Positions 111 to 30,785 of a stretch of DNA of 34,526 nt are shown here, in pieces. Location of the stretch: assembly GCA_024398515.1 (NCBI GenBank), contig JAKSIZ010000028.1, positions 1-34,526 of the forward strand, written 5' to 3'. Position 1 is the first letter of the stretch. Each line of letters opens with the position of its first letter. A program made the position numbers and the translations under genes. This DNA comes from Bacteroidaceae bacterium. Its GTDB lineage: Bacteria; Bacteroidota; Bacteroidia; Bacteroidales; Bacteroidaceae. The notes beneath the pieces are model-generated. The model had not been told where the DNA came from, did not search any database, and saw nothing but the letters and a program-made list of their open reading frames with translations.

Positions 111-170
111 AAAGTTGTACAACTTTCAACCGAATGTTGTACAACTTTCGCGCGAAAGTTGTACAACTTT
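111..170. repeat. Triple palindrome array TP1
   Basis: Three copies of the palindrome AAAGTTGTACAACTTT start at 111, 133 and 155, a period of exactly 22 bp, with 6-nt spacers (127-132 and 149-154). The middle copy has one arm mismatch. The left flank GGGGGTGAAA and the right flank around 175-195 resemble the flanks of TP5. The array lies just beyond the 3' end of the aldo/keto reductase gene. Seen directly in sequence; function unknown. Confidence 0.9.
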
Positions 171-208
171 TTTTCGACTTTAACGTTCGTCTTGTTGAAC
201 GATATGCT

Positions 209-1204
209 TTATATGTTGATGTTTGTTGCGAGTTGCTGCGTGCTGCTTGCGCCGATGAGCACTGATGTTACGGCTTTCTGCTGCAGGATCCATTGCAGTG
301 CTCGCTGGGCAAGTGTCTTTCCGTCGGCCTCTGCCTCGGCGTTCCACTGGCGCAATTGTGCAAGGAGTTCTGGCGTCAATGCACTCGACTTGAGGAACTG
401 TTCGTGAGCCATGCGCGAGTCTGCTGGTATGCCGTTGAGGTAGCGGTTGGTCAGGAGGCCTTGTGCAAGTGGCGAGAACGAGATGAATCCTACTTGTTCT
501 GCTTCAAGCAGGTCGAGTATTCCTTCGTCGATTGGCTCTTTGTTGAGCATGTTGAGCTTTCCCTGATAGATGAGCAGCGGCACGTGCTGGTCGCGTAGGT
601 AATTGATGGCGAAGCGTGTAGCCTCAAGTGGCCAACGCGACAGTCCTACATAGAGTGCCTTGCCTTGGTGCACTATATCGACGAGTGCCTGAAGTGTTTC
701 CTCAAGCGGAGTGTCGGGGTCGTAACGGTGAGAGTAGAATAGGTCAACATACTCAAGGTGCATACGCTTAAGGCTTTGGTCGAGACTGGCGATGAGGTGC
801 TTTCGACTGCCGAAGTTGCCGTAAGGACCTTCCCACATGTCAAAGCCTGCTTTTGACGAGATAAACAGTTCGTCGCGGTAAGGGCGGAAGCTGTCGTCCA
901 TCAATCGTCCGAACGTCTCCTCTGCCGAGCCGTATGGAGGACCATAGTTGTTGGCGAGGTCGAAGTGGGTTATACCGTGGTCGAAGGCGTAGTGAGTGAT
1001 TTCCTTGCTGCGCTGATAAGGGTCAACGCCGCCGAAGTTATGCCAGAAGCCAAGCGAGACTTGTGGTAGCAATACGCCACTATTGCCGCAGCGATTGTAC
1101 TTCATACCGTTTTCGTAGCGTGACTTGTCGACCTTGTAGATGCCGTCAGACAAGTCGTTTCTGACGTGTTCAAGCTTTACGTCGTGTAGTTGTTTGCTGT
1201 TCAT
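209..1204 (-). CDS. Aldo/keto reductase, YghZ-like, probably truncated at the C-terminus
   Basis: This is an NADPH-dependent aldo/keto reductase of the YghZ (L-glyceraldehyde 3-phosphate reductase) type, cytoplasmic, 331 residues. Recognisable family segments are WHNFGG, HFDLANNYGPP (with the catalytic Asp/Tyr region), SSKAGFDMW, YVDLFYSHR and the cofactor-phosphate segment VLIGASS near the C-terminus. The N-terminus carries about 20 residues more than E. coli YghZ; no later Met before residue 34 fits. The C-terminus stops at LATNINI, whereas from memory E. coli YghZ continues about 30 residues with a final helix. The stop lies a few bases from the flank of array TP1, and the frame beyond it does not encode the missing tail. 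The gene follows ispG by 50 nt and may be its distal partner. Family assignment is firm; activity of the shortened form is uncertain. Confidence 0.88.
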   Translation of the reverse strand: MNSKQLHDVKLEHVRNDLSDGIYKVDKSRYENGMKYNRCGNSGVLLPQVSLGFWHNFGGVDPYQRSKEITHYAFDHGITHFDLANNYGPPYGSAEETFGRLMDDSFRPYRDELFISSKAGFDMWEGPYGNFGSRKHLIASLDQSLKRMHLEYVDLFYSHRYDPDTPLEETLQALVDIVHQGKALYVGLSRWPLEATRFAINYLRDQHVPLLIYQGKLNMLNKEPIDEGILDLLEAEQVGFISFSPLAQGLLTNRYLNGIPADSRMAHEQFLKSSALTPELLAQLRQWNAEAEADGKTLAQRALQWILQQKAVTSVLIGASSTQQLATNINI

Positions 1205-1218
1205 AGTTGTTTGTTTTA

Positions 1219-1254
1219 TCGAGATTTCGAGTTGTCGAGATTTCGAGTTTTCGA
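1219..1254. repeat. 16-bp tandem repeat in the ispG/aldo-keto reductase gap
   Basis: The unit TCGAGATTTCGAGTT(G/T) occurs twice (1219-1234 and 1235-1250), followed by a partial TCGA. It fills most of the 50-nt gap between the ispG stop and the next start on the minus strand. It contains several TCGA self-complementary steps. No function can be assigned. Confidence 0.8.
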
Positions 1255-2415
1255 TTATTTTGCGTCTTCCTTGATTAGTTCAAGCAATCGGTCAACGGCT
1301 TCTTCCTCTGGGATGTTCTTTAGGATACATTCTTTTTTGCGATATAGGCTAATCCTTCCGCGCCCTGCACCTACATAACCATAGTCGGCATCAGCCATTT
1401 CTCCTGGGCCATTGACGATGCATCCCATGATTCCAATCTTAAGTTTCTGCGATTCCATCGGTATATTTTCGGCAACGGCTTGCTTTATTTTTGCTATTGT
1501 TCCCTGTAGATCGTAGAGAGTTCTGCCACAACCTGGGCACGAGATGAACTCCGTTTTGGTGATTCTTGCACGTGCTGCCTGGAGAATATTATAGGCAACG
1601 GGTATCTCGTTTTCGGGTTCTTCGGACAGCGATACGCGTATAGTGTCGCCGATACCATCGAGGAGCAAGGCACCGATACCCACTGCTGACTTCAATCTTC
1701 CGTCTTCTCCTTCGCCTGCTTCAGTCACGCCGAGATGGATTGGGAAGTGCATATCCTCGTTGTCCATCTCTTTCACGAGCAACCTTACAGTCTCAACCAT
1801 AACCGTTGTATTGCTTGCCTTGATTGAGATTACCACATTCATAAAGTCCTGCTTAACGCAGATGCGGAGGAATTCAAGGCAGCTTTCGACCATTCCTGCC
1901 GGTGTGTCGCCGTAACGACTCATGATGCGATCGCTCAGCGAACCGTGGTTCACGCCGATGCGAATGGCTGTATGGTGCTCCTTACATATATTAAGGAAAG
2001 GCACGAAACGGGTTTCTATCTTCTGCAGTTCCGCTGCATATTCCTCGTCAGTATAGTCAAGATGCTTGAACTTACGTGCTGGATCAACATAGTTTCCAGG
2101 ATTTATTCGCACTTTGTCAGCGTAGAGTGCGGCAACGTCAGCCACCTTTGCATTGAAATGTACGTCGGCAATTATCGGAACCATATAGCCGTCGCGACGG
2201 AGTCCTTCCTTAATATTCTTCAGGTTTTCGGCTTCTGCTACGCCTTGAGTAGTGAGTCGCACGTATTCTCCACCCGCATCAACAATGCGTTTTATCTGTG
2301 CTATGCACCCTTCTGTATCCATAGTCGAGCAAGTTGTCATGCTCTGTACACGTATCGGATTGTCGCCTCCCATCGGGAGATTGCCGACCATAACCTCGTT
2401 TGTCTTTCTTCTCAT
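1255..2415 (-). CDS. ispG: 4-hydroxy-3-methylbut-2-enyl diphosphate synthase, short form
   Basis: IspG (GcpE) is the [4Fe-4S] enzyme that reductively converts methylerythritol cyclodiphosphate to HMBPP in the MEP isoprenoid pathway. The N-terminal TIM-barrel domain is typical of the Bacteroidota/plant lineage (NPIRVQSMTT, YVRLTTQGV, GVNHGSLSDRIM, ASNT). The C-terminal cluster domain has CPGCGRT with Cys293 and Cys296, then MGC with Cys332 and NGPGE with Glu339, numbered from the ATG at 2415. Bacteroidota IspG normally has a central insert of more than 200 residues between these domains. Here EIPVA is followed directly by YNILQAAR at about residue 274, so the protein is 386 residues, close to E. 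coli's 372. I chose ATG 2415 because it overlaps the upstream stop as ATGA; a GTG at 2442 is an alternative start. Confidence 0.96.
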   Translation of the reverse strand: MRRKTNEVMVGNLPMGGDNPIRVQSMTTCSTMDTEGCIAQIKRIVDAGGEYVRLTTQGVAEAENLKNIKEGLRRDGYMVPIIADVHFNAKVADVAALYADKVRINPGNYVDPARKFKHLDYTDEEYAAELQKIETRFVPFLNICKEHHTAIRIGVNHGSLSDRIMSRYGDTPAGMVESCLEFLRICVKQDFMNVVISIKASNTTVMVETVRLLVKEMDNEDMHFPIHLGVTEAGEGEDGRLKSAVGIGALLLDGIGDTIRVSLSEEPENEIPVAYNILQAARARITKTEFISCPGCGRTLYDLQGTIAKIKQAVAENIPMESQKLKIGIMGCIVNGPGEMADADYGYVGAGRGRISLYRKKECILKNIPEEEAVDRLLELIKEDAK

Positions 2416-3038
2416 AGGAATAATATTATAATGAATGCGCACACTCCACCGACTATGCTGCCGGCGAAGACCTGTGCTACGGTGTGTTGTCTAAGTATGA
2501 TTCGGCTGCTGCCTACTGCTCCCGAAAGCAGGATTAAGAGGCAAAGCCACCACATAGGATTGAAGTCGAAGATAATGGCAAACGCCATAAGCGCACCAAT
2601 CACGCCACCTATTGCCGCAGAATGAGTGCTGATTTTCCACCAAAGGTTTATTGCGGCACATATAAGTTGTATGAAAAGTGCAGTCAGGAGAATGTTTCCC
2701 ATGAAGTGCGGAATGTGTATTGAATGCATTATATAGATGCATCCAAGGTAACACAATGAGGAAATGATATAAGGGACAACGCGCCTTTCCTTTGCTCCTA
2801 ACTGGAATAATGTCCAACCGTTATACTTACGGTAGAAGTTGATGAGCACCGTCGGCAGCAAGATTGTGAAGCAAGCCACGAGCACAAGAACGATAAGTTT
2901 GTATGCCCAAGGCAACATATTAAGGTAACTGAACAGGAATAGTATTACCATTCCAAGCAATGGAAGGTAGAAAGGATTGAATATAACACTCAATGTCTTT
3001 GCTGCAATGATGATGTCCTTCTCTGTAGTCTTGTTCAT
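2412..3038 (-). CDS. PAP2-like integral membrane phosphatase family protein
   Basis: A 208-residue polytopic membrane protein with about six hydrophobic segments and three regions matching the PAP2 phosphatase signature: KERRVVP (motif 1), STHSA (motif 2, containing the His) and SRIILRQHTVAQVFAG (motif 3, SR-x5-H). The usual motif-3 aspartate that follows the His is Gln here. The family removes phosphate from lipid or undecaprenyl pyrophosphate-type substrates; the actual substrate cannot be told. The start ATG at 3038 overlaps the rpoN stop as ATGA, and the gene's own stop overlaps the ispG ATG the same way. It is therefore translated within an rpoN-PAP2-ispG operon. A role in isoprenoid-lipid recycling next to ispG is inference only. 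Confidence 0.85.
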   Translation of the reverse strand: MNKTTEKDIIIAAKTLSVIFNPFYLPLLGMVILFLFSYLNMLPWAYKLIVLVLVACFTILLPTVLINFYRKYNGWTLFQLGAKERRVVPYIISSLCYLGCIYIMHSIHIPHFMGNILLTALFIQLICAAINLWWKISTHSAAIGGVIGALMAFAIIFDFNPMWWLCLLILLSGAVGSSRIILRQHTVAQVFAGSIVGGVCAFIIILFL

Positions 3039-4510
3039 TTCCTTAGTCTTGCTACTGGTATATTCAACTGTTCTCTATACTTTGCCACCGTGCGTCGTGC
3101 GATAGGAAAACCCTTTTTTGCCAATTCCGAAGTAAGTTTCTCGTCGCTCAATGGCTTCTTCTTGTTCTCGCCGTCAATGATTTCCTTCAGTGCTTGCTTT
3201 ATAGCAATGGTCGAAGTTTCCTCGCCATCTGCCGTGACATAGCCGTCGTTGAAGAAAGTCTTTAGCGGATAAGTGCCCCATCGCGTCTGTACATATTTGC
3301 CATTTGTTGCTCTCGAAACGGTGCTGATGTCCATACCTACTCGCTCAGCAATATCTTTAAGAATCATCGGTTTCATCGACATTTCGTCGCCATCTTCGAA
3401 GAAACGTCGCTGCAACTCTATTATGGTTTTCATCACTGCGTACATTGTCTGGTATCTCAGTCGCACTGCCTCGATGAAATTGTTTGCCGAATCTATCTTA
3501 CTTCGGGCATAGTCGCGTGCTTCTTTAAGCGATTTGCTGTCGCCTTTGTCGTTGAGAATGTCCTCGAACGTGTCTGAGATTGTCAGCACAGGAAGGTTTC
3601 CCCTGTTCACGTAGAAGCTTATCGTGCCGTCATCATTCGTGTCAACTACGAAGTCTGGTGTGATTTGCTGCACGCTTTTGCCCACTACTTCATTGAACGA
3701 AGAGCCAGGTTTCGGGTTCAACCTACGCAATTCACGGAACAATTCGTCGGCTTCTTCGTCGTTAAGTTTCAGTGAGCGTTGTATCTTATCCCAGTGTTTC
3801 AGCGTGAACTCACGGTACATATCAGTGATAACTTGTCGTATTAGAAACTGAAAGGAGGGTTCTATTCTTTCTTTTCTTTCTATTTGAAGTAGCAGACATT
3901 CCTGCAAATCGCGTGCCCCGATGCCTGCTGGTTCCATTGACTGCAACACTTTGAGCATACGGTTGACATCGCTCACGTCAACATCAACGTTATGATAGAG
4001 TGCCAATTCCTCGGCTATCAGTTCCGTGTCGCGACGCAAATAACCATCGTCGTCGAGGCTTCCGATGAGATATTCCAACACATACTTTTCGGTTTCGTTA
4101 AGGTCATAGTCGCACATCTGCTCCTTCAACTCATCCTGGAAACTACGTGTCTCGCCAAAGACTACATCCTGTTCTTCATCAGGGCGATTGCGGAAATTCG
4201 GCATCTCGTCGTCTGCTCCGATGCTCATCAGCACATCCTGCAACGCATCCTGACGCTCTTCTTGTTCGTAGTTGTCGTCAATCTCTTCGCTTGGAGTTTC
4301 GTCGTATGTCGGTTCGTCAGCCTGCAGGTCTGTCTCCTTCTCGCCTATCTCAAGCGCAGGGTTATCGTCCATCTCAAGTCTTACTCGCTCTTCAAGTTCA
4401 TTCAACGACAGTTCAAGCACCCTCACTTGCAACACCTGTTGTGGCGAGAGAGTCTGAACCTGCACCTGCTGCTGGTTTTGAACCTGATATTGTGACAGAC
4501 TTTGCTTCAT
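3035..4510 (-). CDS. rpoN: RNA polymerase sigma-54 factor
   Basis: Sigma-54 directs core RNA polymerase to -24/-12 promoters and needs an enhancer-binding ATPase. The 491-residue product has the expected order. The glutamine-rich region I is at residues 1-50 (QNQQQVQVQTLSPQQVLQ). An acidic linker follows at about 55-120, with many Glu/Asp including EEIDDNYEQEERQD. The core-binding domain is in the middle, then the HTH segment (DISTVSRATNGKY), and the RpoN box ARRTVAKYR is at residues 471-479. Length and start fit the family. A Bacteroidota-type -7 element lies 18 nt upstream of the ATG. It is the first gene of the minus-strand operon with the PAP2 gene and ispG. No enhancer-binding protein is encoded in the window. 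Confidence 0.97.
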   Translation of the reverse strand: MKQSLSQYQVQNQQQVQVQTLSPQQVLQVRVLELSLNELEERVRLEMDDNPALEIGEKETDLQADEPTYDETPSEEIDDNYEQEERQDALQDVLMSIGADDEMPNFRNRPDEEQDVVFGETRSFQDELKEQMCDYDLNETEKYVLEYLIGSLDDDGYLRRDTELIAEELALYHNVDVDVSDVNRMLKVLQSMEPAGIGARDLQECLLLQIERKERIEPSFQFLIRQVITDMYREFTLKHWDKIQRSLKLNDEEADELFRELRRLNPKPGSSFNEVVGKSVQQITPDFVVDTNDDGTISFYVNRGNLPVLTISDTFEDILNDKGDSKSLKEARDYARSKIDSANNFIEAVRLRYQTMYAVMKTIIELQRRFFEDGDEMSMKPMILKDIAERVGMDISTVSRATNGKYVQTRWGTYPLKTFFNDGYVTADGEETSTIAIKQALKEIIDGENKKKPLSDEKLTSELAKKGFPIARRTVAKYREQLNIPVARLRK

Positions 4511-4527
4511 AGTCTCTATTACGAATG

Positions 4528-4535
4528 CAAAGATA
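4528..4535 (-). promoter_or_regulatory. Putative -7 element for rpoN
   Basis: On the minus strand TATCTTTG followed by C fits the Bacteroidota primary-sigma consensus TAnnTTTG. It ends 18 nt from the rpoN ATG, implying a leader of roughly 10-13 nt. No convincing -33 TTTG was found at 19-20 nt spacing. Confidence 0.65.
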
Positions 4536-4731
4536 ATGAATTTTTAGAATTTATCATTTCTCCACACATTATTTTTATATAATTTGTAATTATATTCGAC
4601 AAAAAAGTGTGTTTTTCATTTAATACAGCGTGAAAATTGGGTGATATGAACTGTTGATCTAAAGAAAATGGCGTTAATGTTTTTTATGGTTGAACGCTTG
4701 CGTTGCGCGGGACGAACGCTTAACCCGAAAA

Positions 4732-4794
4732 AACATTGCTGCAATGTTCGACTCAACATTGCTACAATGTTCGGACCAACATTGCTGCAATGTT
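4732..4794. repeat. Triple palindrome array TP2
   Basis: The palindrome AACATTGCTGCAATGTT starts at 4732, 4755 and 4778, a period of 23 bp with 6-nt spacers. The middle copy has centre CTA instead of CTG. The array is enclosed by CGCTTAAC on the left and GTTAAGCG on the right (about 4716 and 4802), a perfect 8-bp inverted repeat. A second pair, TTTGGCGGA and TCCGCCAAA, spans 4793-4845. The array lies between the divergent rpoN and dacB genes. The arm sequence is the same as in TP5, as is the right flank (GAGTTAA, CGCTCGACTTG). The rest of the 4511-4991 gap holds only promoter elements. Confidence 0.92.
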
Positions 4795-4972
4795 TGGCGG
4801 AGTTAAGCGCTCGACTTGAGAAGTCATAAAGGTTATCCGCCAAACTTTATAGTGTCATATCCGGCAGGCATAAAGGAGATGGACGGATAGACATGAGTTG
4901 TCGGCTGGCTCACAATGTACAAAAAATCGTAAATAAATTGCAAAGAGCCAACCATAAATGCTAAAAATTGAT

Positions 4973-4980
4973 TAACTTTG
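4973..4980 (+). promoter_or_regulatory. Putative -7 element for dacB operon
   Basis: TAACTTTG followed by CA matches the Bacteroidota -7 box. It lies 11 nt before the ATG at 4992, so the transcript would have a leader of only a few nucleotides. This is why the in-frame ATG at 4968, upstream of the element, was rejected as start. Confidence 0.7.
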
Positions 4981-4991
4981 CAGTCGAATTT

Positions 4992-6191
4992 ATGAATAGG
5001 TCGATTGTCGATAGGGTGATATTGATTGTTTCGGTGATGGCGACGATGTTGTTGCCGTCGGTGAAAACCATGGCTCAGGAACCGCTGTGGCCACAAAACC
5101 TGCAGCAGGAACTGACCAACCTCTTAGACAATTCTTATTTCCACAAGACTCAGATTGGCATCATGGTCTATGACCTCACAGCCGACTCTACGCTGTTTGC
5201 CTCGGGCGAAAAACAGTTGCTCCGCCCTGCATCGACGATGAAACTGCTGACCGGTATCACTGCCCTTGACCGATTGGGATGGCAATACAACTACACAACG
5301 ACGCTCGCCATTACGGGCGATACGCTTGGTGGTGTGCTGCGTGGCGACGTATATTGCCGCGGAGGGTTCGACCCTTCATTCGGCGATAAGGACATGACAG
5401 CATTCGTCGCAGCACTCCGTGGGCTTGGAATCGACTCGATAAGTGGGAGGATTTACGAGGATCTTACGTTCAAGGACGACAAGAAATTCGGTGCCGGATG
5501 GTGTTGGGACGACAATAACTATACGCTTACACCGTTGCTCATTGACAAGAGAGACGCATTCATGGCGACATTCAAAAGCAAGTTGAGGCAGCAGATACGC
5601 CTTGCCAACGACACAACATTGCGTGGCACAGTGCCAGAGAAAGCGAGGATAGTAGCCACTTGCAGCCACTCTTTGCTCTCGGTAATGAAGCAAATGATGA
5701 AAGAAAGCGACAATCTTTACGCCGAATCAATGCTCTATCAGGTGGCTGCTTCGGCAGGAAAACGAGAAGTATCAGCGCAGGATGGGCTTACACTAGTGCG
5801 CAATCTGATAAACTCAATCGGACTTGATGCCGATACATACAACTTTGCCGACGGCAGTGGACTGTCGCTCTACAACTATGTTTCGGCTGAACTGGAGTGC
5901 ATGTTGCTGAGATATGCGTTCCATAAGGACGACATTTACCGTCATCTTTACCCTACACTTCCCGTAGCAGGACGCGATGGTACGCTCTCCTCACGCATGA
6001 AAAACTCGTCGGCTGAGGGTAACGTACACGCAAAGACAGGCACACTGAAGGGCGTCTCATCGCTCGCCGGATACTGTCAGGCGTATAACGGACACCTGCT
6101 TTGCTTCTCAATCATCGACCAAGGAGTGATGAAACAGAGCGAGGCAAAGATGTTCCAGAACAGAATATGTCAAATACTTTGTAGTATATGA
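4992..6191 (+). CDS. dacB: D-alanyl-D-alanine carboxypeptidase/endopeptidase (PBP4 type, S13)
   Basis: This periplasmic serine peptidase trims D-Ala from peptidoglycan stem peptides and cleaves cross-links. The 399-residue product starts with a signal peptide (hydrophobic SIVDRVILIVSVMATMLLPS, cut near MAQ). It carries the three penicillin-binding motifs in order: S81-T-M-K84 (SxxK, with S81 the nucleophile), S239-D-N241 (SxN) and K348-T-G350. The long gap between SxxK and SxN is characteristic of the S13/PBP4 family. The start is set by the promoter overlapping the longer reading frame. The stop TGA overlaps the typA ATG (ATGA), so the two genes are probably translationally coupled. Assignment is firm; the symbol is by family. 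Confidence 0.93.
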   Translation: MNRSIVDRVILIVSVMATMLLPSVKTMAQEPLWPQNLQQELTNLLDNSYFHKTQIGIMVYDLTADSTLFASGEKQLLRPASTMKLLTGITALDRLGWQYNYTTTLAITGDTLGGVLRGDVYCRGGFDPSFGDKDMTAFVAALRGLGIDSISGRIYEDLTFKDDKKFGAGWCWDDNNYTLTPLLIDKRDAFMATFKSKLRQQIRLANDTTLRGTVPEKARIVATCSHSLLSVMKQMMKESDNLYAESMLYQVAASAGKREVSAQDGLTLVRNLINSIGLDADTYNFADGSGLSLYNYVSAELECMLLRYAFHKDDIYRHLYPTLPVAGRDGTLSSRMKNSSAEGNVHAKTGTLKGVSSLAGYCQAYNGHLLCFSIIDQGVMKQSEAKMFQNRICQILCSI

Positions 6192-8727: not shown

Positions 8728-8746
8728 ATTTATATCTCTTTGGGGC

Positions 8747-13534: not shown

Positions 13535-13597
13535 CACATTCTTAGAATGTTCCGCCGAACATTCTTAGAATGTTCACGTGAACATTCTAAGAATGTG
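13535..13597. repeat. Triple palindrome array TP3
   Basis: The palindrome AACATTCTTAGAATGTT occupies 13558-13574. Variants lie at 13535-13551 and 13581-13597. The period is 23 bp and the spacers are 6 nt (CCGCCG and CACGTG). The whole array is close to a palindrome itself, because the outer copies run into TTTTGC on the left and GCAAA on the right. Just downstream, AAGCATCGCCCCA (13609-13621) recurs 107 bp downstream of TP5. Apart from the array and the oadG promoter, the 13508-13822 gap shows no gene. Confidence 0.9.
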
Positions 13598-13822: not shown

Positions 13823-14746
13823 ATGAGAAAATTCATATTATCGTTAGCCGTATTGTTGTCGGGAACTTCGATGGTGTTCGGTCAGGGAGCAAACAACATC
13901 AAGATCAACGAAGTGATGACCAACAACACGGAAAACTATCTTGATGAGTACGGTGCGCACTTGCCTTGGATAGAGTTGACAAACAACTCATTCACCACCT
14001 ACAACGTGCGCGGCATGTACATCACAACCAATCGCGACGTGCTCAACGAGGCAATGAGCGTGCCAGAGCGTATCAAGCTCATGAGCATGATACCTAATGG
14101 TTTCGACGCAACAATCCTCGCAGGCCGCCACAAACTATTGCTCTTCCTCAACAGTGCACCCGCAAAAGGTCCGCGTCACCTAAGCCAGACTCTCAACGTA
14201 GGTGAGGAGACATGGATAGCCCTTTACGACGGAAATGCAAAGACACTAATCGACTCTGTAACCGTCGTACCGCTCGGCGAGAACCAAAGTTACGCACGAC
14301 TGCCAAAGGACGGCACGGGAAAATGGACCGTCGCAACAGCCGACAAGGTGACTCCTGACGGTAACAACCAGGTAAAAGCAGAGACATCCAAGATTGCAAC
14401 ATGGAAGGAAAAGGACCCACGTGGCGGACTTCTCTCCATACAAGCAATGACAATAACCTTCACGGCACTCATCCTCCTCTTCATCTTCATGAAGTGTTTC
14501 GGAGCATTCGCAAAGAGATTTCTTGCACGTAAGAAGGTAAATACAAGCGCAGTAATAAATTCTCAAACATCAAGTATTATGGCAAAGAAAGAAACAATCA
14601 AGGAACAGGAAGTGCTCGTAGCCGTTATAGCAATGGCACTTCAAGAGTATCAGAACGACGTTCATGACCAGGAAAGTGGCGTCATCACCATTAAGCGCAA
14701 GCAAACATCATGGAACTTCAAGCAATTCAATCAACTCGGAAAGTAA
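13823..14746 (+). CDS. oadG: Sodium-pump decarboxylase gamma subunit with periplasmic lamin-tail domain
   Basis: A 307-residue fusion. A signal peptide (1-20) precedes a lamin-tail/LTD-type beta domain (about 24-195: IKINEVMTNN, LPWIELTNNS, GRHKLLLFLN, ETWIALYDGN, SYARLPKDGTG). One transmembrane helix follows at about 212-232 (MTITFTALILLFIFMKCFG), then a cytoplasmic OadG-like tail ending in VAVIAMALQEYQND and ITIKRKQTSW. OadG holds the carboxyltransferase and membrane subunits of Na+-translocating oxaloacetate or methylmalonyl-CoA decarboxylases together. Classic gamma subunits are only about 80-90 residues. The biotin carrier and beta-subunit genes follow at once. The periplasmic domain's role is unknown. 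I believe LTD-OadG fusions recur in Bacteroidota. Confidence 0.88.
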   Translation: MRKFILSLAVLLSGTSMVFGQGANNIKINEVMTNNTENYLDEYGAHLPWIELTNNSFTTYNVRGMYITTNRDVLNEAMSVPERIKLMSMIPNGFDATILAGRHKLLLFLNSAPAKGPRHLSQTLNVGEETWIALYDGNAKTLIDSVTVVPLGENQSYARLPKDGTGKWTVATADKVTPDGNNQVKAETSKIATWKEKDPRGGLLSIQAMTITFTALILLFIFMKCFGAFAKRFLARKKVNTSAVINSQTSSIMAKKETIKEQEVLVAVIAMALQEYQNDVHDQESGVITIKRKQTSWNFKQFNQLGK

Positions 14747-18710: not shown

Positions 18711-18850
18711 AAAAAAGTCCACTATTTCACAATAGCGGACTTTTACTAAAAAAATAACCTAAAACTAAAACTTATACTATGAAAACAATCTATTTACTTC
18801 TCTACTTTTCTTTTGTGCCTTTGTGGCTCTTGCAACAATTTCTTGTTTGC
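18711..18850 (-). ncRNA. Candidate small RNA transcribed on the minus strand
   Basis: A minus-strand TACCTTTG (plus coordinates 18856-18863) with TTG 21 nt upstream resembles a promoter but faces no gene. About 110 nt downstream on the same strand, GTCCGCTATT and AATAGTGGAC form a hairpin with a GTGA loop followed by TTTTTT (18744 down to 18711), a good intrinsic terminator. Together they would define an RNA of about 135-140 nt that converges on the hppA terminator. It contains GCC-ACAAA-GGC as a possible internal hairpin. I do not recognise a known family. The hairpin could instead be a second hppA terminator. The rest of the 18646-19079 gap holds the transporter promoter and possible operators. 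Confidence 0.4.
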
Positions 18851-18855
18851 GAGTG

Positions 18856-20549: not shown

Positions 20550-20766
20550 GTTCTTTCGCTTTTATCGTCGGTCATCGTGGCTTGCATCAAACGAAGTGAG
20601 TGAAAAAAAACTGCTACAGTTTTCACATCGAAACTGCTACAGTTTTGCATCGAAAACTGCTACAGTTTTCTGCCGAGTAAAAGGCTCGTTCCGTAAAAGC
20701 CAAATGTTCGTGTCAGTAGAAACACAACATCATGAAACCAAAAGGCAACGGCAAAAGCGAAAGAAC
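20550..20766. repeat. Long-range inverted repeat around TP4
   Basis: GTTCTTTCGCTTTT (20550-20563) and AAAAGCGAAAGAAC (20753-20766) are perfect 14-bp inverted copies. They enclose about 190 bp including array TP4, between the MFS transporter and deoC. They could form the base of a large stem-loop or mark the ends of an element. Confidence 0.75.
20607..20669. repeat. Triple palindrome array TP4
   Basis: The palindrome AAAACTGCTACAGTTTT starts at 20607, 20630 and 20653 (period 23, spacers of 6 nt). The middle copy begins with G instead of A. The left flank is GAGTGAAAA, as GGGTGAAAA in TP5. The right flank CGAGTAAAAGGCTCG matches the CGAGTTAAACGCTCG flank of TP5 and keeps its CGAG/CTCG pairing. 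All three minus-strand frames contain stops within the array, so it is not coding. Confidence 0.92.
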
Positions 20767-22684: not shown

Positions 22685-22704
22685 CTTTTTCTTGAATTCG
22701 ACTG

Positions 22705-22840: not shown

Positions 22841-22883
22841 CAAAAAAAAACCGTGCCGTTCAGTGTCACTTGAACGGCACGGT
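22841..22883 (-). terminator. Terminator of the 311-residue protein gene
   Basis: ACCGTGCCGTTCA (22850-22862) and TGAACGGCACGGT (22871-22883) form a perfect 13-bp stem with an 8-nt loop. Read on the minus strand the stem is followed by nine T residues, so it terminates the gene ending at 22909. Confidence 0.9.
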
Positions 22884-22908
22884 AAATGTGCGGTCTTTAG
22901 ATAATTTA

Positions 22909-23844: not shown

Positions 23845-23919
23845 AATTACTTTTTTTAATTGTTATACATTATTTATTTGTGTTTGTTATTTATGTTTGT
23901 GGTTTTGCATTTGCTGGTG

Positions 23920-23950
23920 CAAAGGTAACGACGAAAGTTGTATTTTGCAA
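23920..23950 (-). promoter_or_regulatory. Promoter of the 311-residue protein gene
   Basis: On the minus strand TTG (23950-23948), 20 nt, then TACCTTTG (23927-23920) followed by C. The inferred leader is about 70 nt. Confidence 0.72.
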
Positions 23951-24106
23951 TACCAGCATGTATTATTTGTTGAATTGTTGCATGTTTTTTGTTTATTTGT
24001 TCCGTTTTTTACGGATTGTTCCATCAAATTGTTTGATTGTTCGTCTATTTTTACGCCTTAATATAAAAAAAACTCTCATTTTCTTTTTTATTCTCAAAAG
24101 ATAGAT

Positions 24107-24114
24107 TATATTTG
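24107..24114 (+). promoter_or_regulatory. Putative -7 element for the LamG/OmpA gene
   Basis: TATATTTG fits TAnnTTTG and lies 34 nt before the ATG at 24149. The -33 region is only a T run. Confidence 0.55.
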
Positions 24115-24148
24115 TATCGTGAATAAGAATTATTAATTTCTAACTAAT

Positions 24149-25444: not shown

Positions 25445-25465
25445 ATTGTTTTTCGCCATACGACG

Positions 25466-27043
25466 TTAATCGTTTTGCGGCACGAACGATAGCTTTTCGC
25501 AATACTTTCTGTTTGTATCGGAAAAAACATTGGTATAAGTGAAGTTGCTGAAGGTGACGCTGCCGCCATCCTCTTGGGTGTTGTAGTTGAATAGTGCTAC
25601 ACGTGCACCCTTCCAGAAACCATTGCGCATGGCAAATGTTGTGGCGATGCTGCGCAACGGCTTGCCCTGTTTTGCGGCATACGACAGGCAGAACTCGTTG
25701 CGTTCAGTGTCGTAGTCGAGTGCAAGCAATACGCGTTGGCTATTGTATGGCTGCATGGCAACGGTGAGTTCGTCGTGTTCTTCATAAAGGTAGAGCGCAC
25801 CGCCACGCTTCATGATGCCAATGAGCATGTTCTGCTTACCCATGCACGAGAGGCCGCAACGCTGTCCTTCCTGCATCTGTGAAAGGTCGAGCATTACCTC
25901 GGCATGCCGCTTGTAGCCTATGATTTTTTGTGTAAACGTGTTTCTTGCCTGCTTGAAATCGTTGGCTTTAAGTGCCGTCAGCGTCAGCGATTGCTTGTCT
26001 GGGCTGATGCTCCAACGGTCGTTCACGGGATTGTGATTCCACTGCCAGTGCAGTCCAAAGCCTTCTATCTTGGCAAACGACTGGTCGATGCGCTTGCCTT
26101 TAGGCATCTTGCACTCATCTACAGGCTCTCCTATGCCGTTGCTATCAACGTCGTGCCCCATCACGGGCCAGTTCTCTTCCCAGTGCATAGGCTGTAGATG
26201 CACCACACGACCAAGGGGTGATTTCTCCTGGAAATGCAAGAACCACCACTCGCCTTCGGGCGTATCGACTATTGCACCTTGGTGAGGACCGTTGGTTTTA
26301 GTCGAGCCTTGCTCAAGCACAATGCGACGTTCGTATGGTCCGTAAATGTTCTTCGAGCGAAGACAAGTCTGCCATCCTTGCCCTACACCGCCTTCAGGAA
26401 TGCACAGATAATAGTATCCGTTGAGCTTATAGAACTTTGTTCCCTCAGCCACAGGGCCTCGATATACCTCAACACCATCGTCGAGAAGTTGCTTTCCATC
26501 GGGGCTCATGCGGTGGACAATGATTGGTCCTGCCCCATGCTGACTGCGTCCGAGGTATGCCTGACCGTCCTCATCCCAGAACGGACAAGGGTCTTCCCAC
26601 TTCTTTACACCCTTGACGAGGTGCAGCGGAGCCCACGGTCCGTCGGGGTTTTCGGCACAAGTCATGAACAGACCTTCGTCAGGTGTGCAGAAAAACACCC
26701 AGAACTTGCCGTCGTGATAACGTATTGCCGGTGCCCAAGAGCCGCCGGCGTAGTGTTTGTTTTCGTTCCATCCAGGGAAGTCGAGGCGTGAATATATCTG
26801 CGAAATAATCTTCCAGTTGACCAGATCATACGACTTGAGCACCTGCATTCCCATAAAATGGAAGTCGGATGCAACCATATAATACGCATCGCCAACCCTT
26901 ATAGCATCGGGGTCAGAGTAGTCTATCGGGAGGATTGGGTTCTTGTAATAACCATTCCCAAGGTCGCCCCAAGCGTATGTCTGCGCTGTGGCGACGAGAG
27001 TTGAAAGGCAAAATGCAATGGAGATAACAGTCCTGTGGAGCAT
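25466..27043 (-). CDS. Secreted glycoside hydrolase family 43 enzyme
   Basis: A 525-residue exported enzyme with a signal peptide ending near TAQ (residue 21). It has a five-bladed propeller GH43 domain (about 33-320) and a C-terminal beta-sandwich (about 335-515). The catalytic set is visible: base Asp44 in DYSDPDAIRV, pKa modulator Asp151 in KKWEDPCPFWDEDG, and acid Glu200 in VAEGTKFYKL. GH43 enzymes act as beta-xylosidases or alpha-L-arabinofuranosidases on plant xylan or arabinan; the layout with a C-terminal sandwich suits either. It starts 3 nt after the manC stop, so the two share a transcript, an unusual pairing. It converges with the LamG/OmpA gene with a gap of only 21 nt. Confidence 0.93.
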   Translation of the reverse strand: MLHRTVISIAFCLSTLVATAQTYAWGDLGNGYYKNPILPIDYSDPDAIRVGDAYYMVASDFHFMGMQVLKSYDLVNWKIISQIYSRLDFPGWNENKHYAGGSWAPAIRYHDGKFWVFFCTPDEGLFMTCAENPDGPWAPLHLVKGVKKWEDPCPFWDEDGQAYLGRSQHGAGPIIVHRMSPDGKQLLDDGVEVYRGPVAEGTKFYKLNGYYYLCIPEGGVGQGWQTCLRSKNIYGPYERRIVLEQGSTKTNGPHQGAIVDTPEGEWWFLHFQEKSPLGRVVHLQPMHWEENWPVMGHDVDSNGIGEPVDECKMPKGKRIDQSFAKIEGFGLHWQWNHNPVNDRWSISPDKQSLTLTALKANDFKQARNTFTQKIIGYKRHAEVMLDLSQMQEGQRCGLSCMGKQNMLIGIMKRGGALYLYEEHDELTVAMQPYNSQRVLLALDYDTERNEFCLSYAAKQGKPLRSIATTFAMRNGFWKGARVALFNYNTQEDGGSVTFSNFTYTNVFSDTNRKYCEKLSFVPQND

Positions 27044-27046
27044 TTT

Positions 27047-28123
27047 CTACGTGAAATTTTCGTATTTTATCTGTACTTCGTTGACGTATTTGCGCACGAG
27101 TGCCGACGAATTTTCCTTCTTTGTGATAAGCAAAACGTCGCCATCGTCAACGACAATATAGTCCTTCAGACCATTTATCACGGCGAGTTTGTTCGGCGCA
27201 ATCTTTATCATATTGCCCTCGCAGTCGTCGAGGATAACCTTTGAATCGAGCACAACATTGCTATTTGAGTCTTTCGGCAGCACCTCATATACGTTGTGCC
27301 ACGTGCCGAGGTCAGCCCATCCAAACTTGCAAGTCATTACATAAACCACGTCAGACTTCTCTAATACGCCGTGGTCGAGGCTCAGGTTAGGGTAGAGAGA
27401 GTAATGGTCGCGCATGAACTTTGCCTCTTCGTCCTCGCTGAGACCAGGCTTTTCCTGACGGATATTGCGGAAGATTACCGGCAGAATGCGGTCGATGGAT
27501 TGCAGGATACCGTTTGCGGAACTGATGAAAACGCCCGTGTTCCAGAAAAACTCACCCGTCTTAATGAACATTTCAGCGAACTCGATATTGGGTTTTTCCG
27601 TAAACGACTTCACCTTATATATATTATAGGAAGGAGTCTCGCCGTCGGTTTGTATGTAGCCATACTCCGTTTCCGGTCGGGTTGCCTTGACGCCAATGGT
27701 CAATAATTTGTCGGTTCCATCGACAAATTCCAGTCCTTCGTGCATGTTTTTTGCAAACTCTTCCTCATTCAAAATCAACATATCGGCAGGTGTGACCACA
27801 ATGTTTGCGTCGGGTTCACGGTCGCGGATCTTGAATGCAGCCCACGCCATACTTGGCGCAGTGTTGCGTTGAATGGGTTCAGTAAGTATGTTTTCGGCAG
27901 AGATTTCGGGCAGTTGCTCCTTCACTTGGTCGAGATATTCCTCGTTTGTAGTGATGTAGATGTTCTCTAATGGCACTATTTTCGTAAATCTCTCGTATGT
28001 CTGTTGCAGAGGAGTCTTGCCGAAGCCGAAGATGTCAACAAACTGTTTAGGTTTGTTTTCGCGGCTGCAAGGCCATAGGCGCTTGCCCTTTCCCCCCGCT
28101 AAAATTACACAATAATTGCTCAT
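27047..28123 (-). CDS. manC: Mannose-1-phosphate guanylyltransferase
   Basis: The cytoplasmic enzyme makes GDP-mannose from GTP and mannose 1-phosphate for mannose- and fucose-containing glycans. The 358-residue product has the nucleotidyltransferase signature LAGGKGKRLWPCSRENKPKQ at the N-terminus and ITTNEEYLDQV. It also has EPIQRNTAPSMAWAA, the FTEKPN motif (residues ~170), GEFFWNTGVF and KFGWADLGTW. It lacks the C-terminal phosphomannose isomerase domain found in bifunctional ManC. Length matches the monofunctional form common in Bacteroidota. Confidence 0.95.
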   Translation of the reverse strand: MSNYCVILAGGKGKRLWPCSRENKPKQFVDIFGFGKTPLQQTYERFTKIVPLENIYITTNEEYLDQVKEQLPEISAENILTEPIQRNTAPSMAWAAFKIRDREPDANIVVTPADMLILNEEEFAKNMHEGLEFVDGTDKLLTIGVKATRPETEYGYIQTDGETPSYNIYKVKSFTEKPNIEFAEMFIKTGEFFWNTGVFISSANGILQSIDRILPVIFRNIRQEKPGLSEDEEAKFMRDHYSLYPNLSLDHGVLEKSDVVYVMTCKFGWADLGTWHNVYEVLPKDSNSNVVLDSKVILDDCEGNMIKIAPNKLAVINGLKDYIVVDDGDVLLITKKENSSALVRKYVNEVQIKYENFT

Positions 28124-28527
28124 ATTTGTTGGTCAGTAGTTTTAACTTTAAGTCATTTTTATATTTCTATAACGCAAAACTTCCGTTTTTGTTGTGCGAT
28201 GCAAATCATTTTTTCACCCACCTTCTTGTCCGTTGCAAAAGTAATCATAATATACGATTTGTATTAGCTACACCTTATTAATAAACGCGCGCGTGCGTGC
28301 GCGCGCATACAAATAATCATAATTTTAACATTCGAAAGTTTCAATTTTCTGGAATTATTTTTCAAATACTATGCTTTTTTAACATTCACAGCACAAGTGA
28401 CAATACCGCTGTAAAAACAAAAAAACACGATAAATGGAAATAAAACCTTTTTGCGTGCTATTATGATTACATCGATAATTGTACGGGTAAGCCTTTCAGG
28501 ATATGATTTAGCGGATGCTGAAAATTT
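28124..28527. other. Intergenic gap upstream of manC with Z-DNA-like tract
   Basis: About 400 bp without a gene. It holds the manC -7 element and an alternating purine/pyrimidine tract (28285-28311) rich in GC steps. ATTTGTAT (about 28257) and ATACAAAT (28307-28314) flank the tract as an 8-bp inverted repeat, and TAATCATAAT occurs as a direct repeat on both sides. The remainder, up to the DUF721 stop, is A/T-rich with no clear terminator. Confidence 0.7.
28236..28243 (-). promoter_or_regulatory. Putative -7 element for manC
   Basis: On the minus strand TACTTTTG followed by C fits TAnnTTTG. It would give a leader of about 105 nt. No good -33 box was seen. Confidence 0.5.
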
Positions 28528-28818
28528 TTAAACAAATCGGATATCTACGATGATATTTGAGTTTACGGCGGCGTTTAGGAGGGCGACGTACTTGCTGCGG
28601 GACATGGTGAGGTCGGCTCGCAGGGCTGGATTCTTTACGTGAACGAAGAGGACTTGATTCTTTATGTATGGGTTTTCGAGGTATGCGGCAAGCGTTTCGC
28701 CCATTACTGTGGGGATGGAATCAACGAGTCGCTTCTGCAAAAGCGGCGTTTCGAGTCCTTGCTCACGTATGTATTGCTGCAAGACTCCTCCGATTAATTC
28801 TGATTGCTTTCTAAACAT
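28528..28818 (-). CDS. DUF721 (DciA-like) protein
   Basis: A 96-residue protein of the DUF721 family, recognised from the N-terminal helix FRKQSELIGGVLQQYIREQGLE and the central LFVHVKNPALRADLTMSR, where the family's valine-rich strand and R-x-E/D-L motif occur. DUF721 includes DciA, the ancestral loader of the replicative helicase, although Bacteroidota members are short. Its ATG lies inside recF and the two overlap by 25 nt, which fixes the start and indicates translational coupling. The recF-DUF721 pairing is common in Bacteroidota. A role in replication or repair is an inference from family and context. Confidence 0.85.
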   Translation of the reverse strand: MFRKQSELIGGVLQQYIREQGLETPLLQKRLVDSIPTVMGETLAAYLENPYIKNQVLFVHVKNPALRADLTMSRSKYVALLNAAVNSNIIVDIRFV

Positions 28819-29945
28819 TCTATGTGTCCTCCTGCGACGTGGAAGATTCTGTAGTCGTATGGACTGCGCTTGAGTATCATGTCAAGGTGCTCACGATTAG
28901 TGTCGGTGATGAAGATTTGCCCGAATTCATCGCTTGAAACCAGCTTTACTATCTGCTCAACCCGATGCGCATCGAGCTTGTCGAAGATGTCGTCGAGCAG
29001 CAGGATTGGCGTCTTTTGTTGCGTCTTTCCTTTGAGATATTCGAACTGCGAGAGCTTTAGTGCGAGCACGAATGTCTTGTTTTGTCCTTGCGAACCTTCC
29101 TTTTTCAGTGGGTATCCGCCTATTGTCATCTCCAGTTCGTCGCGATGAACACCATGCAGGGAATAGCCCATGATGAGGTCTTTGAGCCTATCGCGTTGTA
29201 TCGTTTCGAGCAATGGTCCGCGCTGGCAATGCGATGTGTAGGCGAGCGAGACCTGTTCCCTGTTGTCGGCTATCAGGTTGTAATAGCGTTGGAAGAGGGG
29301 TGTTATCTCTTCGATGAACGCATTGCGCTTGGCGAATATCACTTCTCCGTATGCAGCCATTTGCTCTTCGTAGAGTTCCATGAGGCTTATCATCGACTGA
29401 TCTGGGCACATTGCGCTGTGTCCGCCATGCTCGTCGCATGCCTTTTTCAGCAGTACGTTACGCTCTTGCAGTGCTTTGCCATAGCGTGCGAGTGCATCTA
29501 CGTATTCACGGTCGTGCTGTGAAACGGTCACGTCAATGAGGTGCCGTCGCTCGTCGCTTGCGCCTTCGATGACCGAGACGTCCGATGGCGCAACGAGAAT
29601 CACGGGTGCAAGTCCGAGATGTTCAGACAGTCTGCGGTATTCCTTCTTGTTGCGCTTGAAGTGTTTCTTCTTGCCTTTCTGCATGCCGCAATATATATCC
29701 TCAAGGTTTCCGTTGCTGTCTGAGTACTGTCCTTGCAGCATGAAGAAGTCCTGGTCGTGCTTCATCACTTGCGAGTCGATATGGTTGAAAGCGCTTTTGC
29801 AGAACGATAGGAAGTAGATGGCATCGACAACATTTGTCTTTCCCTCGCCGTTGTTTCCGACGAAGCAATTGATGTTTTGCGAGAACTCGAGTTGAGCCTC
29901 GGCAATGTTCTTGAAGTTAGTTATCGAAAGTTTGTCCAAGTGCAT
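28794..29945 (-). CDS. recF: DNA replication/repair protein RecF
   Basis: RecF is an SMC-like ATPase that helps RecOR load RecA at gaps. The 383-residue product has Walker A GNNGEGKTN near residue 32 and the ABC signature-like GSQGQNKTFVLALKLSQ. Walker B is ILLLDDIFDKLD, with the usual D-loop after it. I set the start at the ATG at 29945 (MHLDKLSITNFKNIAEAQ) because a -7 element lies just upstream at 29954-29961 and the longer frame would read through it. This leaves a leader of only about 2-5 nt. The 3' end overlaps the DUF721 gene. Confidence 0.95.
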   Translation of the reverse strand: MHLDKLSITNFKNIAEAQLEFSQNINCFVGNNGEGKTNVVDAIYFLSFCKSAFNHIDSQVMKHDQDFFMLQGQYSDSNGNLEDIYCGMQKGKKKHFKRNKKEYRRLSEHLGLAPVILVAPSDVSVIEGASDERRHLIDVTVSQHDREYVDALARYGKALQERNVLLKKACDEHGGHSAMCPDQSMISLMELYEEQMAAYGEVIFAKRNAFIEEITPLFQRYYNLIADNREQVSLAYTSHCQRGPLLETIQRDRLKDLIMGYSLHGVHRDELEMTIGGYPLKKEGSQGQNKTFVLALKLSQFEYLKGKTQQKTPILLLDDIFDKLDAHRVEQIVKLVSSDEFGQIFITDTNREHLDMILKRSPYDYRIFHVAGGHIECLESNQN

Positions 29946-29953
29946 TTCATCTG

Positions 29954-29984
29954 CAAAGTTAGTGCAAATCGAAGACAATACAAA
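29954..29984 (-). promoter_or_regulatory. Promoter of recF
   Basis: On the minus strand TTTG (29984-29981), 19 nt, then TAACTTTG (29961-29954) followed by CA. The ATG at 29945 is 8 nt beyond the -7 box, so the mRNA is nearly leaderless. The promoter overlaps copy 1 of the tandem duplication at 29958-30117. Confidence 0.8.
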
Positions 29985-30117
29985 ATAAAAGTCAAAGATT
30001 TTTATTTTTATTGTTAAGATGCCGCCTAACTTCGACGCAGTCAGCGTTAGTGCTTATCGAAGACAATACAAAATAAAAGTCAAAGATTTTTATTTTTATT
30101 GTTAAGATGCCGCCTAA
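29958..30117. repeat. Tandem duplication with 88-bp period upstream of recF
   Basis: 29958-30029 and 30046-30117 are 72-bp direct copies with two mismatches, separated by 16 bp. The 62 bp from 29968 are identical. The copy includes the recF -33 box and spacer and part of the -7 box; the second copy lacks the full -7 TTTG. Confidence 0.92.
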
Positions 30118-30134
30118 TGTTATAGATAAAAATA

Positions 30135-30267
30135 CATTTCATTATGTGTGTCTGCCTTTGGCAGCCTTGATGTGACGGTTGCAGTTGTGCTTATATGAAC
30201 AAGTTCATAACGCGCAGCTGCAACCATCACATCGCTCTTCATACGAAGAGCCACACATAATAAAATG
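30135..30267. repeat. Cross-shaped inverted repeat element E1
   Basis: A long imperfect inverted repeat centred at 30201. The basal stem pairs 30135-30150 with 30252-30267 (one mismatch). Each arm then carries its own hairpin (CTGCC-TTT-GGCAG at 30152-30164, GCTCTTC-ATAC-GAAGAGC at 30234-30251). The apical stem pairs 30169-30184 with 30218-30233 and ends in TATGAAC-AA-GTTCATA. Folded, this is a four-way junction. The apical part shares sequence with E3 in reverse orientation. No coding frame is supported. Confidence 0.88.
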
Positions 30268-30306
30268 AAAAAATACCTTACGGTAAAAAATGTGGCCGTT
30301 GGCCAT

Positions 30307-30425
30307 AAAAAATAAAGGAGCCCCCCTCTGTCCCCCCAAGGGTGGATGATAGGTTTCCATTCTCTTCCCCCTGGGGGAGTTGGAGGGGGCTGTTTGGGGG
30401 GAACGAGGGGGCTCCTTTATTTTTT
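30307..30425. repeat. G/C-rich inverted repeat element E2
   Basis: AAAAAATAAAGGAGCCCCC (30307-30325) and its exact inverse (30407-30425) enclose TCCCCCCAA (30331-30339) pairing with TTGGGGGGA (30394-30402), and a CCCCCTGGGGG hairpin near 30367-30377. The outer stem has a T-rich tail in both directions, as a bidirectional terminator would. I recall similar C-run/G-run intergenic repeats in Bacteroidota genomes. Confidence 0.85.
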
Positions 30426-30454
30426 ACGAACGAAGTGAGATATTTTTTATGCGA

Positions 30455-30602
30455 AGCACATTTTGTATATGATGTATGGATGGCCACGTCAGTGGTGTCT
30501 GTGTGTTGTATTGCAGCGCAAGAACTTGTTCTTTAGCACTGCAATACAACACACAGACATGGGCTTCAGTATGAAGCACACCATACATCATATCATTTTG
30601 CT
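30455..30602. repeat. Cross-shaped inverted repeat element E3
   Basis: Same layout as E1, with different stems. The basal stem pairs 30467-30479 with 30581-30593 (13 bp, perfect). The side hairpins are CCAC-GTCA-GTGG (30484-30495) and GCTTCA-GTA-TGAAGC (30563-30577). The apical stem pairs 30496-30516 with 30539-30559 (21 bp, perfect), with tip AAGAAC-TT-GTTCTT. The tip region 30511-30544, read in reverse, matches the E1 apex (TTGCAG, TGCT, GAACAAGTTC, GCG, CTGCAA in order). Its right end recurs at 32447-32484. Confidence 0.88.
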
Positions 30603-30722
30603 CTAATAAACAACACTTGAGGTATGAGTTAGGCACTCTTTGCTTATTTTTGTGGGTATTGACGGGTATATTTGGCGGGTGTTTGCGGTTGGGGGTGGGA
30701 GGTCGTGCGTTATGGGTGAAAA

Positions 30723-30785
30723 AACATTGCTGCAATGTTGACTCTAACATTGCTCCAATGTTCGGACCAACATTGCTGCAATGTT
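30723..30785. repeat. Triple palindrome array TP5
   Basis: AACATTGCTGCAATGTT starts at 30723, 30746 and 30769 (period 23, spacers of 6 nt); the middle copy has centre CTC. The left flank holds GTTGGGGGTG (also at TP1) and GGGTGAAAA; the right flank is GAACGAGTTAAACGCTCG. It shares arms and flanks with TP2. AAGCATCGCCCCA, also next to TP3, occurs at about 30890. The array lies between the divergent recF and TPR genes. Confidence 0.92.

Follow-up and report, generated by a model that had tools for sequence, protein, structure and literature searches.

What kind of repeat keeps the number, size and spacing of its units when the sequence of those units changes from locus to locus? The question is raised by five intergenic loci in a 34,526-nucleotide stretch of DNA from a Bacteroidaceae bacterium (contig JAKSIZ010000028.1 of assembly GCA_024398515.1; hereafter, the window), each of which contains an array of three short palindromes separated by 6-nt spacers. 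The assembly is 2.65 Mb in size and 88% complete, and the window belongs to its contig C21. We propose, at a probability of roughly 0.4, that these arrays are DNA platforms for a dimeric, DNA-wrapping or architectural protein that would organise the chromosome. Below, we describe the arrays, their distribution in this genome and their counterparts in relatives, and then weigh this reading against the alternatives.

When re-read, all five loci were found to consist of three units with both spacers exactly 6 nt long, as had been claimed in the original prediction, which was made from the sequence of the window. The unit length is 16 nt in the array at 111-170 (family A, AAAGTTG-TA-CAACTTT; units 111-126, 133-148 and 155-170) and 17 nt in the other four arrays, so that the period is 22 or 23 bp. 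Family B, AACATTG-CTN-CAATGTT, is represented at 4732-4794 (units 4732-4748, 4755-4771 and 4778-4794, with the spacers CGACTC and CGGACC) and again at 30723-30785 (units 30723-30739, 30746-30762 and 30769-30785). The array at 13535-13597 (units 13535-13551, 13558-13574 and 13581-13597) is of the AACATTC-TTA-GAATGTT type (family C), and the one at 20607-20669 (units 20607-20623, 20630-20646 and 20653-20669) consists of AAAACTG-CTA-CAGTTTT units (family D); no strand is assigned to any of these features. The 7-nt arms, originally described as palindromic in every unit, are perfect in 11 of the 15 units and carry one mismatch in the other 4, namely, the middle units of the arrays at 111-170 and 20607-20669 and both outer units of the array at 13535-13597. 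The arm sequence, likewise, does differ between loci, but it falls into four discrete families, with the arrays at 4732 and 30723 sharing one.

The arrays form a large and uniform population in this genome. We scanned for the four unit families in two samples, namely, contigs C1, C12 and C2 taken whole (391 kb) and contigs C3, C4, C8, C9 and C10 together with 100 kb of C23 (338 kb); all these contigs were already known to contain B units, so that the sample was not blind to content. Altogether, 71 elements were identified in 729 kb (37 and 34 in the first and second samples, respectively), which scales to ~258 per genome. The prediction of hundreds of copies per genome thus holds, and indeed, searches of the whole assembly for unit pairs of three of the families yielded 142 (B), 77 (D) and 37 (A) forward matches. 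Among the 71 elements, 66 are triples, every one with spacers of 6 and 6 nt (23 of family D, 22 of B, 14 of A and 7 of C), 3 are doubles with a 6-nt spacer each, 2 are single units cut by contig ends, and none contains four or more units. Arrays of two, four or five units, which would have spoken against a fixed rule if they had been as common as triples, accordingly amount to 3 of the 69 uncut elements, all of them doubles. The suggested comparison with control DNA came out in the same way. A letter-blind scan of the first sample for tandem palindromes with 6-bp perfect arms detected 33 clusters and no pairs at all in order-2 Markov DNA (across letter-blind scans of this sample, 33 and 34 clusters were obtained), and a chain search in two Markov copies of this DNA produced 5 chains of two units and none of three. 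One AT-rich triple outside the four families was also encountered in the chain search. Several contigs start or end at an array (starts at C12:62 and C2:20, the end of C12 at 151264 of 151332, and position 111 of the window), as expected because the arrays are repeats.

The elements are largely intergenic, as predicted, and are laid out evenly. All placement results rest on genes called with a simple gene caller of our own. By these calls, 62 of the 71 elements lie between genes, 6 are located at contig edges without two flanking calls, and 3 overlap a gene call, two at the 5' end of the call and one in an open reading frame (ORF) that begins at the contig start. The 62 elements occupy about a third of the large gaps (174 gaps of at least 100 bp). 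The 61 intervals between elements average 10.3 kb and range from 4.1 to 28.0 kb, with a coefficient of variation (CV) of 0.40. When equal numbers of elements were distributed randomly over the called intergenic gaps of at least 100 bp, each gap being weighted by its length, the mean CV was 0.86 and never fell below 0.61, so that 0 of 5000 draws were as even as the actual layout. The CV of the first sample alone is 0.43, against 0.85 under the null, and that of the second sample, for which no separate null was computed, is 0.33. Neighbouring elements show no clear tendency to belong to the same or to different families (12 same-family neighbours among the 61 intervals versus 17.0, standard deviation 3.4, in shuffled orders). 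Large imperfect palindromes that are not triple arrays were also observed, at ~30120-30280 of the window, at ~72702 of C1 (L034) and at ~107831 of C12 (L044), each ~0.5-0.6 kb from a triple array; three more, less near to arrays, are found in C12 at ~8891, 111529 and 112192. In these large palindromes, 43-51 of 80 pairs match, compared with shuffled maxima of 38-39.

Each element extends beyond its core. In the 64 of the 66 triples that have enough flanking sequence, the flanks of the core are mirror-symmetric: GAnCG words are located at -18, -40 and -62, each less conserved than the one before, and conservation becomes small beyond ~-66. In this genome, conservation thus decays outward in 22-bp steps without a sharp boundary, and the element is roughly a row of nine sites that are strongest in the centre. 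Around the array at 4732, the left outer zone, with the set-wide GAnCG words at 22-bp steps, spans positions 4666-4731 and mirrors the right outer zone at 4795-4860, as drawn from the conservation profile of the 64 elements; similar zones flank the other four arrays of the window. The outer 22-bp sites, the even spacing and the recurrence in relatives go beyond the original prediction. Its suggestion that the period places the dyads on one face of the DNA holds roughly: at 10.5 bp per turn of B-DNA, 23 bp makes ~2.2 turns, and relatives use 21, 22 or 23 bp.

In relatives, the design of the arrays recurs with other letters. The B pattern was absent from all 29 relatives searched and from every contig of the genome_contigs set, from which this genome and near ones might be left out; among 298 other genomes of the genus, none contained pairs of D units and none contained pairs of A units. 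Nevertheless, a letter-blind scan of intergenic self-similarity, applied to eight sampled genomes of the genus, two of which lack the excess, shows that lag 22 or 23 is the commonest in this genome as well as in G073, G010, G016 and G003, and lag 21 in G008. In G010, the rpoN gene of which is 55% identical, the elements recognised by eye mostly contain three core units of a different sequence, 22-23 bp apart, with outer units at 22 bp; the exceptions are one element with apparently four core units and one with the outer type only. The 15 elements found in 200 kb of this genome are all intergenic and even in their spacing, with a CV of 0.34 versus 0.84 under the null (2 of 5000 draws) and a minimum distance of 8.1 kb. 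G073 contains 36 elements in 800 kb; four units were scored in 23 of them and three units in the other 13. Of the 95 steps between units, 94 are exactly 22 bp, and the spacers are 5 nt long. The minimum distance between these elements is 6.8 kb, and none of 20,000 uniform draws, from a null not limited to intergenic gaps, was as wide. G016 harbors 17 arrays of three to six scored units in 22-bp steps, all intergenic. Thus the copy number, proposed to be fixed, is three in this genome but varies in relatives. The search words for G010, G016 and G073 were picked after viewing their repeats, and therefore the counts in these genomes are descriptive; a letter-blind five-unit dyad score was underpowered, returning 0 in G010, where the words chosen by eye found the 15 elements.

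Dispersed repeats of other kinds were observed in some of the same genomes. G004, G008 and G009 (L099-L108 and L109-L113) contain few or no 22-bp arrays and many intergenic hairpins of 7-9 bp tandem words such as GGAGTTAAG or AACTGTG. In G016 (L074-L083), other dispersed intergenic repeats, for example, AACTCGGTACGAGTT and CAAGCGAAGC-type words, occur beside the 22-bp arrays.

Farther afield, we examined loci of the oxaloacetate decarboxylase beta gene. The protein encoded in the window shares 84-86% identity with its counterparts in 18 genomes that carry the titles Prevotella, Prevotellaceae or Bacteroidales, a large part of which come from ruminants according to these titles; the genome itself is placed in one large genus, which we take to be Prevotella. 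The loci used, the best 80 of 592 relatives (594 stretches), were split by identity into 18 close and 62 distant ones, with L147 and L156 among the distant loci bearing Prevotella titles. The close loci yielded 15 matches at lags 20-24 versus 15 at 24 other lags, and the distant ones 29 versus 42. Lag 21-23 arrays with dyads discernible by eye are present in Prevotella or Prevotellaceae (L116, L125 and L193) and, further out, in Bacteroidaceae (L149), Tannerella (L146) and Bacteroidales (L152); in Porphyromonas (L132), arrays with a 23-bp period occur at two places 12.3 kb apart. Several other matches at lags 20-24 in the wider loci are AT-rich or unconvincing, all of these having been judged case by case, with dyad scores that lack a control. 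An order-wide occurrence of the arrays is likely.

In one close pair of genomes, G144 and G158, which also show the design in other letters and have 95% identity across the 49 kb of DNA that could be aligned, the arrays mostly keep their positions. Among the 13 lag-22 matches in the G144 stretch, one, at 59453, falls past the aligned part, and 11 of the 12 testable ones are paired syntenically in G158. Identity between the two genomes is 0.952 in the arrays, 0.928 in other intergenic DNA and 0.954 in coding DNA. Within array family F1, changes affect 0 of 112 arm sites, 1 of 70 inner bases and 6 of 126 spacer sites (7 of 196 for inner bases and spacers combined), and units are gained or lost in 22-bp steps, as in the F1 array at 18749, where G158 has a 22-nt gap. 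Whole-genome searches for the F1 pair gave 72 forward matches in G158 and 78 in G144, with 0 matches to the reversed pattern. The 46 listed F1 elements of contig C1 of G158 are at least 3.9 kb apart (P ~0.009 under a uniform null that is not limited to intergenic gaps).

Taken as protein-binding platforms, the arrays would work as follows. A dimeric, dyad-recognising protein would assemble cooperatively on sites about two helical turns apart; the three central palindromes would be its strongest sites, and the weaker mirror-image sites would fade over ~66 bp on each side. Such platforms, located in intergenic gaps every ~10 kb irrespective of the direction of the neighbouring genes, might organise the chromosome by wrapping DNA or by setting the boundaries of loops or supercoil domains. 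Given that the letters differ by species, the protein (or proteins, with four families in this genome) would shift its specificity along with them. The phased dyads, the outward decay, the slow change of the arms and the lack of pairing covariation (see below) together argue for a protein on double-stranded DNA, and the even spacing, the indifference to gene direction and the presence in about a third of the large gaps point to a role at the level of the chromosome rather than of single genes. A more general version, in which geometry (a dyad period of 21-23 bp, few units and mutual exclusion over kilobases) defines the platforms carried by the chromosomes of Prevotella, and probably of much of Bacteroidales, with the letters completely replaced between species and the ruler kept, appears rather unlikely.

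Candidate proteins were also considered. In a review of archaeal Lrp proteins, dimers are reported to occupy imperfect palindromes of 13-17 bp that follow one another at two or three helical turns, with about 100 bp wrapped on three interacting dimers (PMC2995911). The arrays described here share this layout of Lrp/AsnC operators, with dyads of 13-17 bp at a distance of two or three helical turns. HU-HIG proteins (PF18291) are only a lead: the eight genomes with arrays have 6 to 30 matches, and the two genomes without arrays have 4 and 3, so that the domain tracks the arrays weakly, with ordinary HU genes probably among the matches. The whole genome of G003 contains 30 HU-HIG matches, compared with 3-11 in nine other genomes of the genus.

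A number of observations weigh against the platforms. The arrays of G016 are spaced no more evenly than expected by chance (CV of 0.72 versus 0.77, with 1948 of 5000 nulls as low), and those of G073, with a CV of 0.91, respect only a minimum distance; therefore, the ruler is not general. In G004 and G009, lags 20-24 were not enriched in the lag scan, which covered 100 kb of each genome. The genes for Lrp, the obvious candidate ligand, are present in 10 of 10 genomes, with or without arrays (one match in this genome), and so do not discriminate. Copies of one family in this genome share the orientation pattern of their centres (identical in 7 of 7 for family C), which looks like copying. By eye, no array occupies the same place in any of 19 relative loci of rpoN or 29 relative loci of the aldolase gene, two of the genes next to arrays in the window, and synteny with G073 is thin, with 5 element gaps for which both orthologues were found, 1 of them with the orthologues adjacent, and no G073 element there. 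The twelfth testable array of G144, at 14010, lies within a ~1.3 kb segment that is absent from G158 there. It belongs to family F3. In G144 (L289-L291; 7750-7974, 13897-14400 and 49143-49649 of the joined stretch), the similarity between copies of this family extends for 220-510 bp, with 81-85% identity, so that the family looks like a longer dispersed, perhaps mobile, repeat. Finally, the F1 count of changes is partly biased in that the units were selected by arm match in G144.

The main rival of the platform reading is mobile or selfish dispersal, which we consider somewhat unlikely. The arrays would then be short non-autonomous elements, their 22-bp units would be sites for an enzyme, and copies would be kept apart by an exclusion comparable to the target immunity of Tn7 and Mu, both of which show such immunity and carry repeated 22-bp sites at their ends. 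Dispersal fits the copy number of ~250, the homogeneity of the four families and the orientation patterns that their members share, the minimum distance between copies in four species, the letters that are private to a species as far as searched, the lack of arrays at the same place in relatives for the rpoN and aldolase loci, and the F3 copies of G144, including the one in the segment missing from G158. However, the element has no sharp end in this genome and fades stepwise instead. Direct repeats of 5 nt in the flanks show no excess over shuffled pairs, with a best identity of 0.331 against a null maximum with a mean of 0.342, where only equal offsets were tried and the ends are ill-defined; higher values, at k = 2, 4, 6, 8 and -16 to -39, fall inside the conserved flank and come without a null. 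BLAST matches among the 71 elements, taken with 300-bp flanks, are short (median of 44, 99th percentile of 139 and maximum of 257 bp), and in G073, only the units are seen to recur (by eye, in 14 of the 36 elements). Moreover, 11 of the 12 testable arrays keep their place in G144 and G158, and this genome contains only one broken match to a Y1 transposase. If dispersal were nevertheless the correct explanation, the arrays would also be unusual, as dispersed elements that visibly exclude one another and, in this genome, lack clear ends.

Local gene control, with each array acting as an operator, insulator or attenuator and the spacing arising as a by-product of operon length, is improbable. The arrays are intergenic, and the nearest called gene end is at most 250 bp away from 28 of 33 elements of the first sample. 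In the window, the array at 4732-4794 sits in the divergent gap between rpoN (minus strand) and a gene for an S13 peptidase (plus strand), and that at 20607-20669 is flanked by an MFS gene and a gene for a DeoC/LacD-family aldolase. Furthermore, the longest element-free interval, C12:53042-80989 (L041-L043), is a run of long ORFs, most of ~600 to 1090 amino acids; by size alone, these recall SusC/SusD-type loci. Yet gaps of the three orientations are used about as their share of the intergenic length predicts (11 divergent, 19 tandem and 3 convergent among the 33 first-sample elements; 17, 40 and 5, respectively, among the 62 elements of all contigs), and layouts drawn randomly from the real gaps are much more uneven than the actual one.

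It is very improbable that a folded strand is the active form, be it a long RNA hairpin, a cruciform or the three hairpins in a row in RNA offered in the original prediction. Three predicted RNA folds are stable (z of -6.4, -3.1 and -5.2) because the whole element is near-palindromic, and they form one long rod with unit 1 paired with unit 3 rather than three hairpins. Among the 41 units that depart from the consensus, 40 break the pairing of the arms without compensation, although many of these are recurrent variants rather than 41 independent events, and the left and right flanks of one element agree less well (identity of 0.472 across the inner 22 nt) than those paired by within-family shuffling (0.537). 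Such pairing-breaking variants and non-covarying flanks are expected of protein sites rather than of a folded strand, and the orientation of the adjacent genes, which follows intergenic length, also does not favor folding.

We give just as little credence to site-specific recombination, in which the 6-nt spacer and the two arms around it would be the core site of a tyrosine recombinase, much as Xer sites have 6-bp centres: the arms are inverted around exactly 6 nt, and the arrays tend toward two different spacers (GACTC and GGACC types in family B, CAAGTC and CGATC types in family D), with one of each type in 42 of the 66 arrays, two of type I in 3 and at least one unclassed spacer in 21 by classes set after viewing, but the two orders occur with similar frequency (23 and 19), and the spacers of G073 are 5 nt long. 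The polarity defined by the spacer order is not linked to GC skew, which is positive for 10 of the 23 I-II elements and 9 of the 19 II-I elements.

In the prevailing view, folded bacterial chromosomes consist of domains of ~10 kb, and we know of no regularly laid-out boundary elements in them. With a repeat of lasting geometry and spacing but changing sequence, domain formation could be tested from sequence data, and a rapidly evolving DNA-binding partner would be predicted for common bacteria of the gut and mouth. Some of the repeats filed as miniature inverted-repeat transposable elements (MITEs) might also be seen in a new light. If the general version of the platform reading is true, it describes a bacterial analogue of the fast-evolving centromere satellites and their binding proteins.

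How, then, do the arrays compare with known systems? At the gathering threshold, Rfam detects only a tRNA in the window, and the B pattern, the family searched there, has 0 exact matches in the viral_contigs set, which lends no support to a phage origin. Intrinsic terminators were rejected given the lack of bias to the 3' sides of genes among the 33 first-sample elements. Clustered regularly interspaced short palindromic repeats (CRISPR) have unique spacers of ~30-40 nt, whereas the spacers of the arrays are 6 nt long and recurrent. A MITE with definite ends was rejected for this genome on account of the outward decay, without a terminal boundary, in 64 of the 66 triples. Repetitive extragenic palindromic (REP) sequences, bacterial interspersed mosaic elements (BIMEs) and REP doublets forming hairpins (REPINs) are dispersed intergenic palindromes with hundreds of copies; unlike these, the arrays have three phased units, even spacing and four families. 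REP-type hairpin action was rejected by an indirect test, that is, the lack of compensatory change in arms or flanks, and a system of REPINs with their REP-associated tyrosine transposase (RAYT) was rejected because the one match to Y1_Tnp is partial, with an internal stop, and no intact RAYT was found, in an 88%-complete assembly that might miss one. Architectural or segregation sites such as matS and parS resemble the arrays in being dispersed palindromic protein sites tied to chromosome organisation; they differ in being single short sites that are limited to a region of the chromosome and have letters conserved among relatives.

In the titles and abstract beginnings of open-access PubMed Central literature, our searches brought up reports on BrickBuilt and on Lrp and no description of these arrays. 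BrickBuilt of Porphyromonas gingivalis resembles the arrays in being intergenic, dispersed and species-restricted, with 23-nt tandem units that are predicted to form stem-loops, in the same bacterial order; each genome contains 19 copies of it, which comprise 1 to 22.8 units, a leader, a tail and terminal inverted repeats (PMC4596501). The arrays differ from it in their ~250 copies, three palindromic units (in 66 of 69 elements, rather than a variable number with a leader and a tail), constant 6-nt spacers and even spacing, and in that no terminal boundary was found. As the original prediction had surmised, the arrays of this genome, judged by defining features other than target duplication, fit none of the named classes tested, which were Rfam families, CRISPR, terminators, REP/REPIN, BrickBuilt and MITE; under a scheme that lumps every dispersed intergenic palindrome into a single kind, they would be a variant of it. 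Among the published models considered, the closest in its working is that of the multi-site operators of Lrp/AsnC proteins such as Ss-LrpB, reported as rows of 13-17 bp imperfect palindromes on which three dimers wrap ~100 bp (PMC2995911). There, the sites serve a regulator of transcription; here, they number in the hundreds, are spread evenly along the chromosome, have letters specific to the species and are not tracked by the number of Lrp genes.

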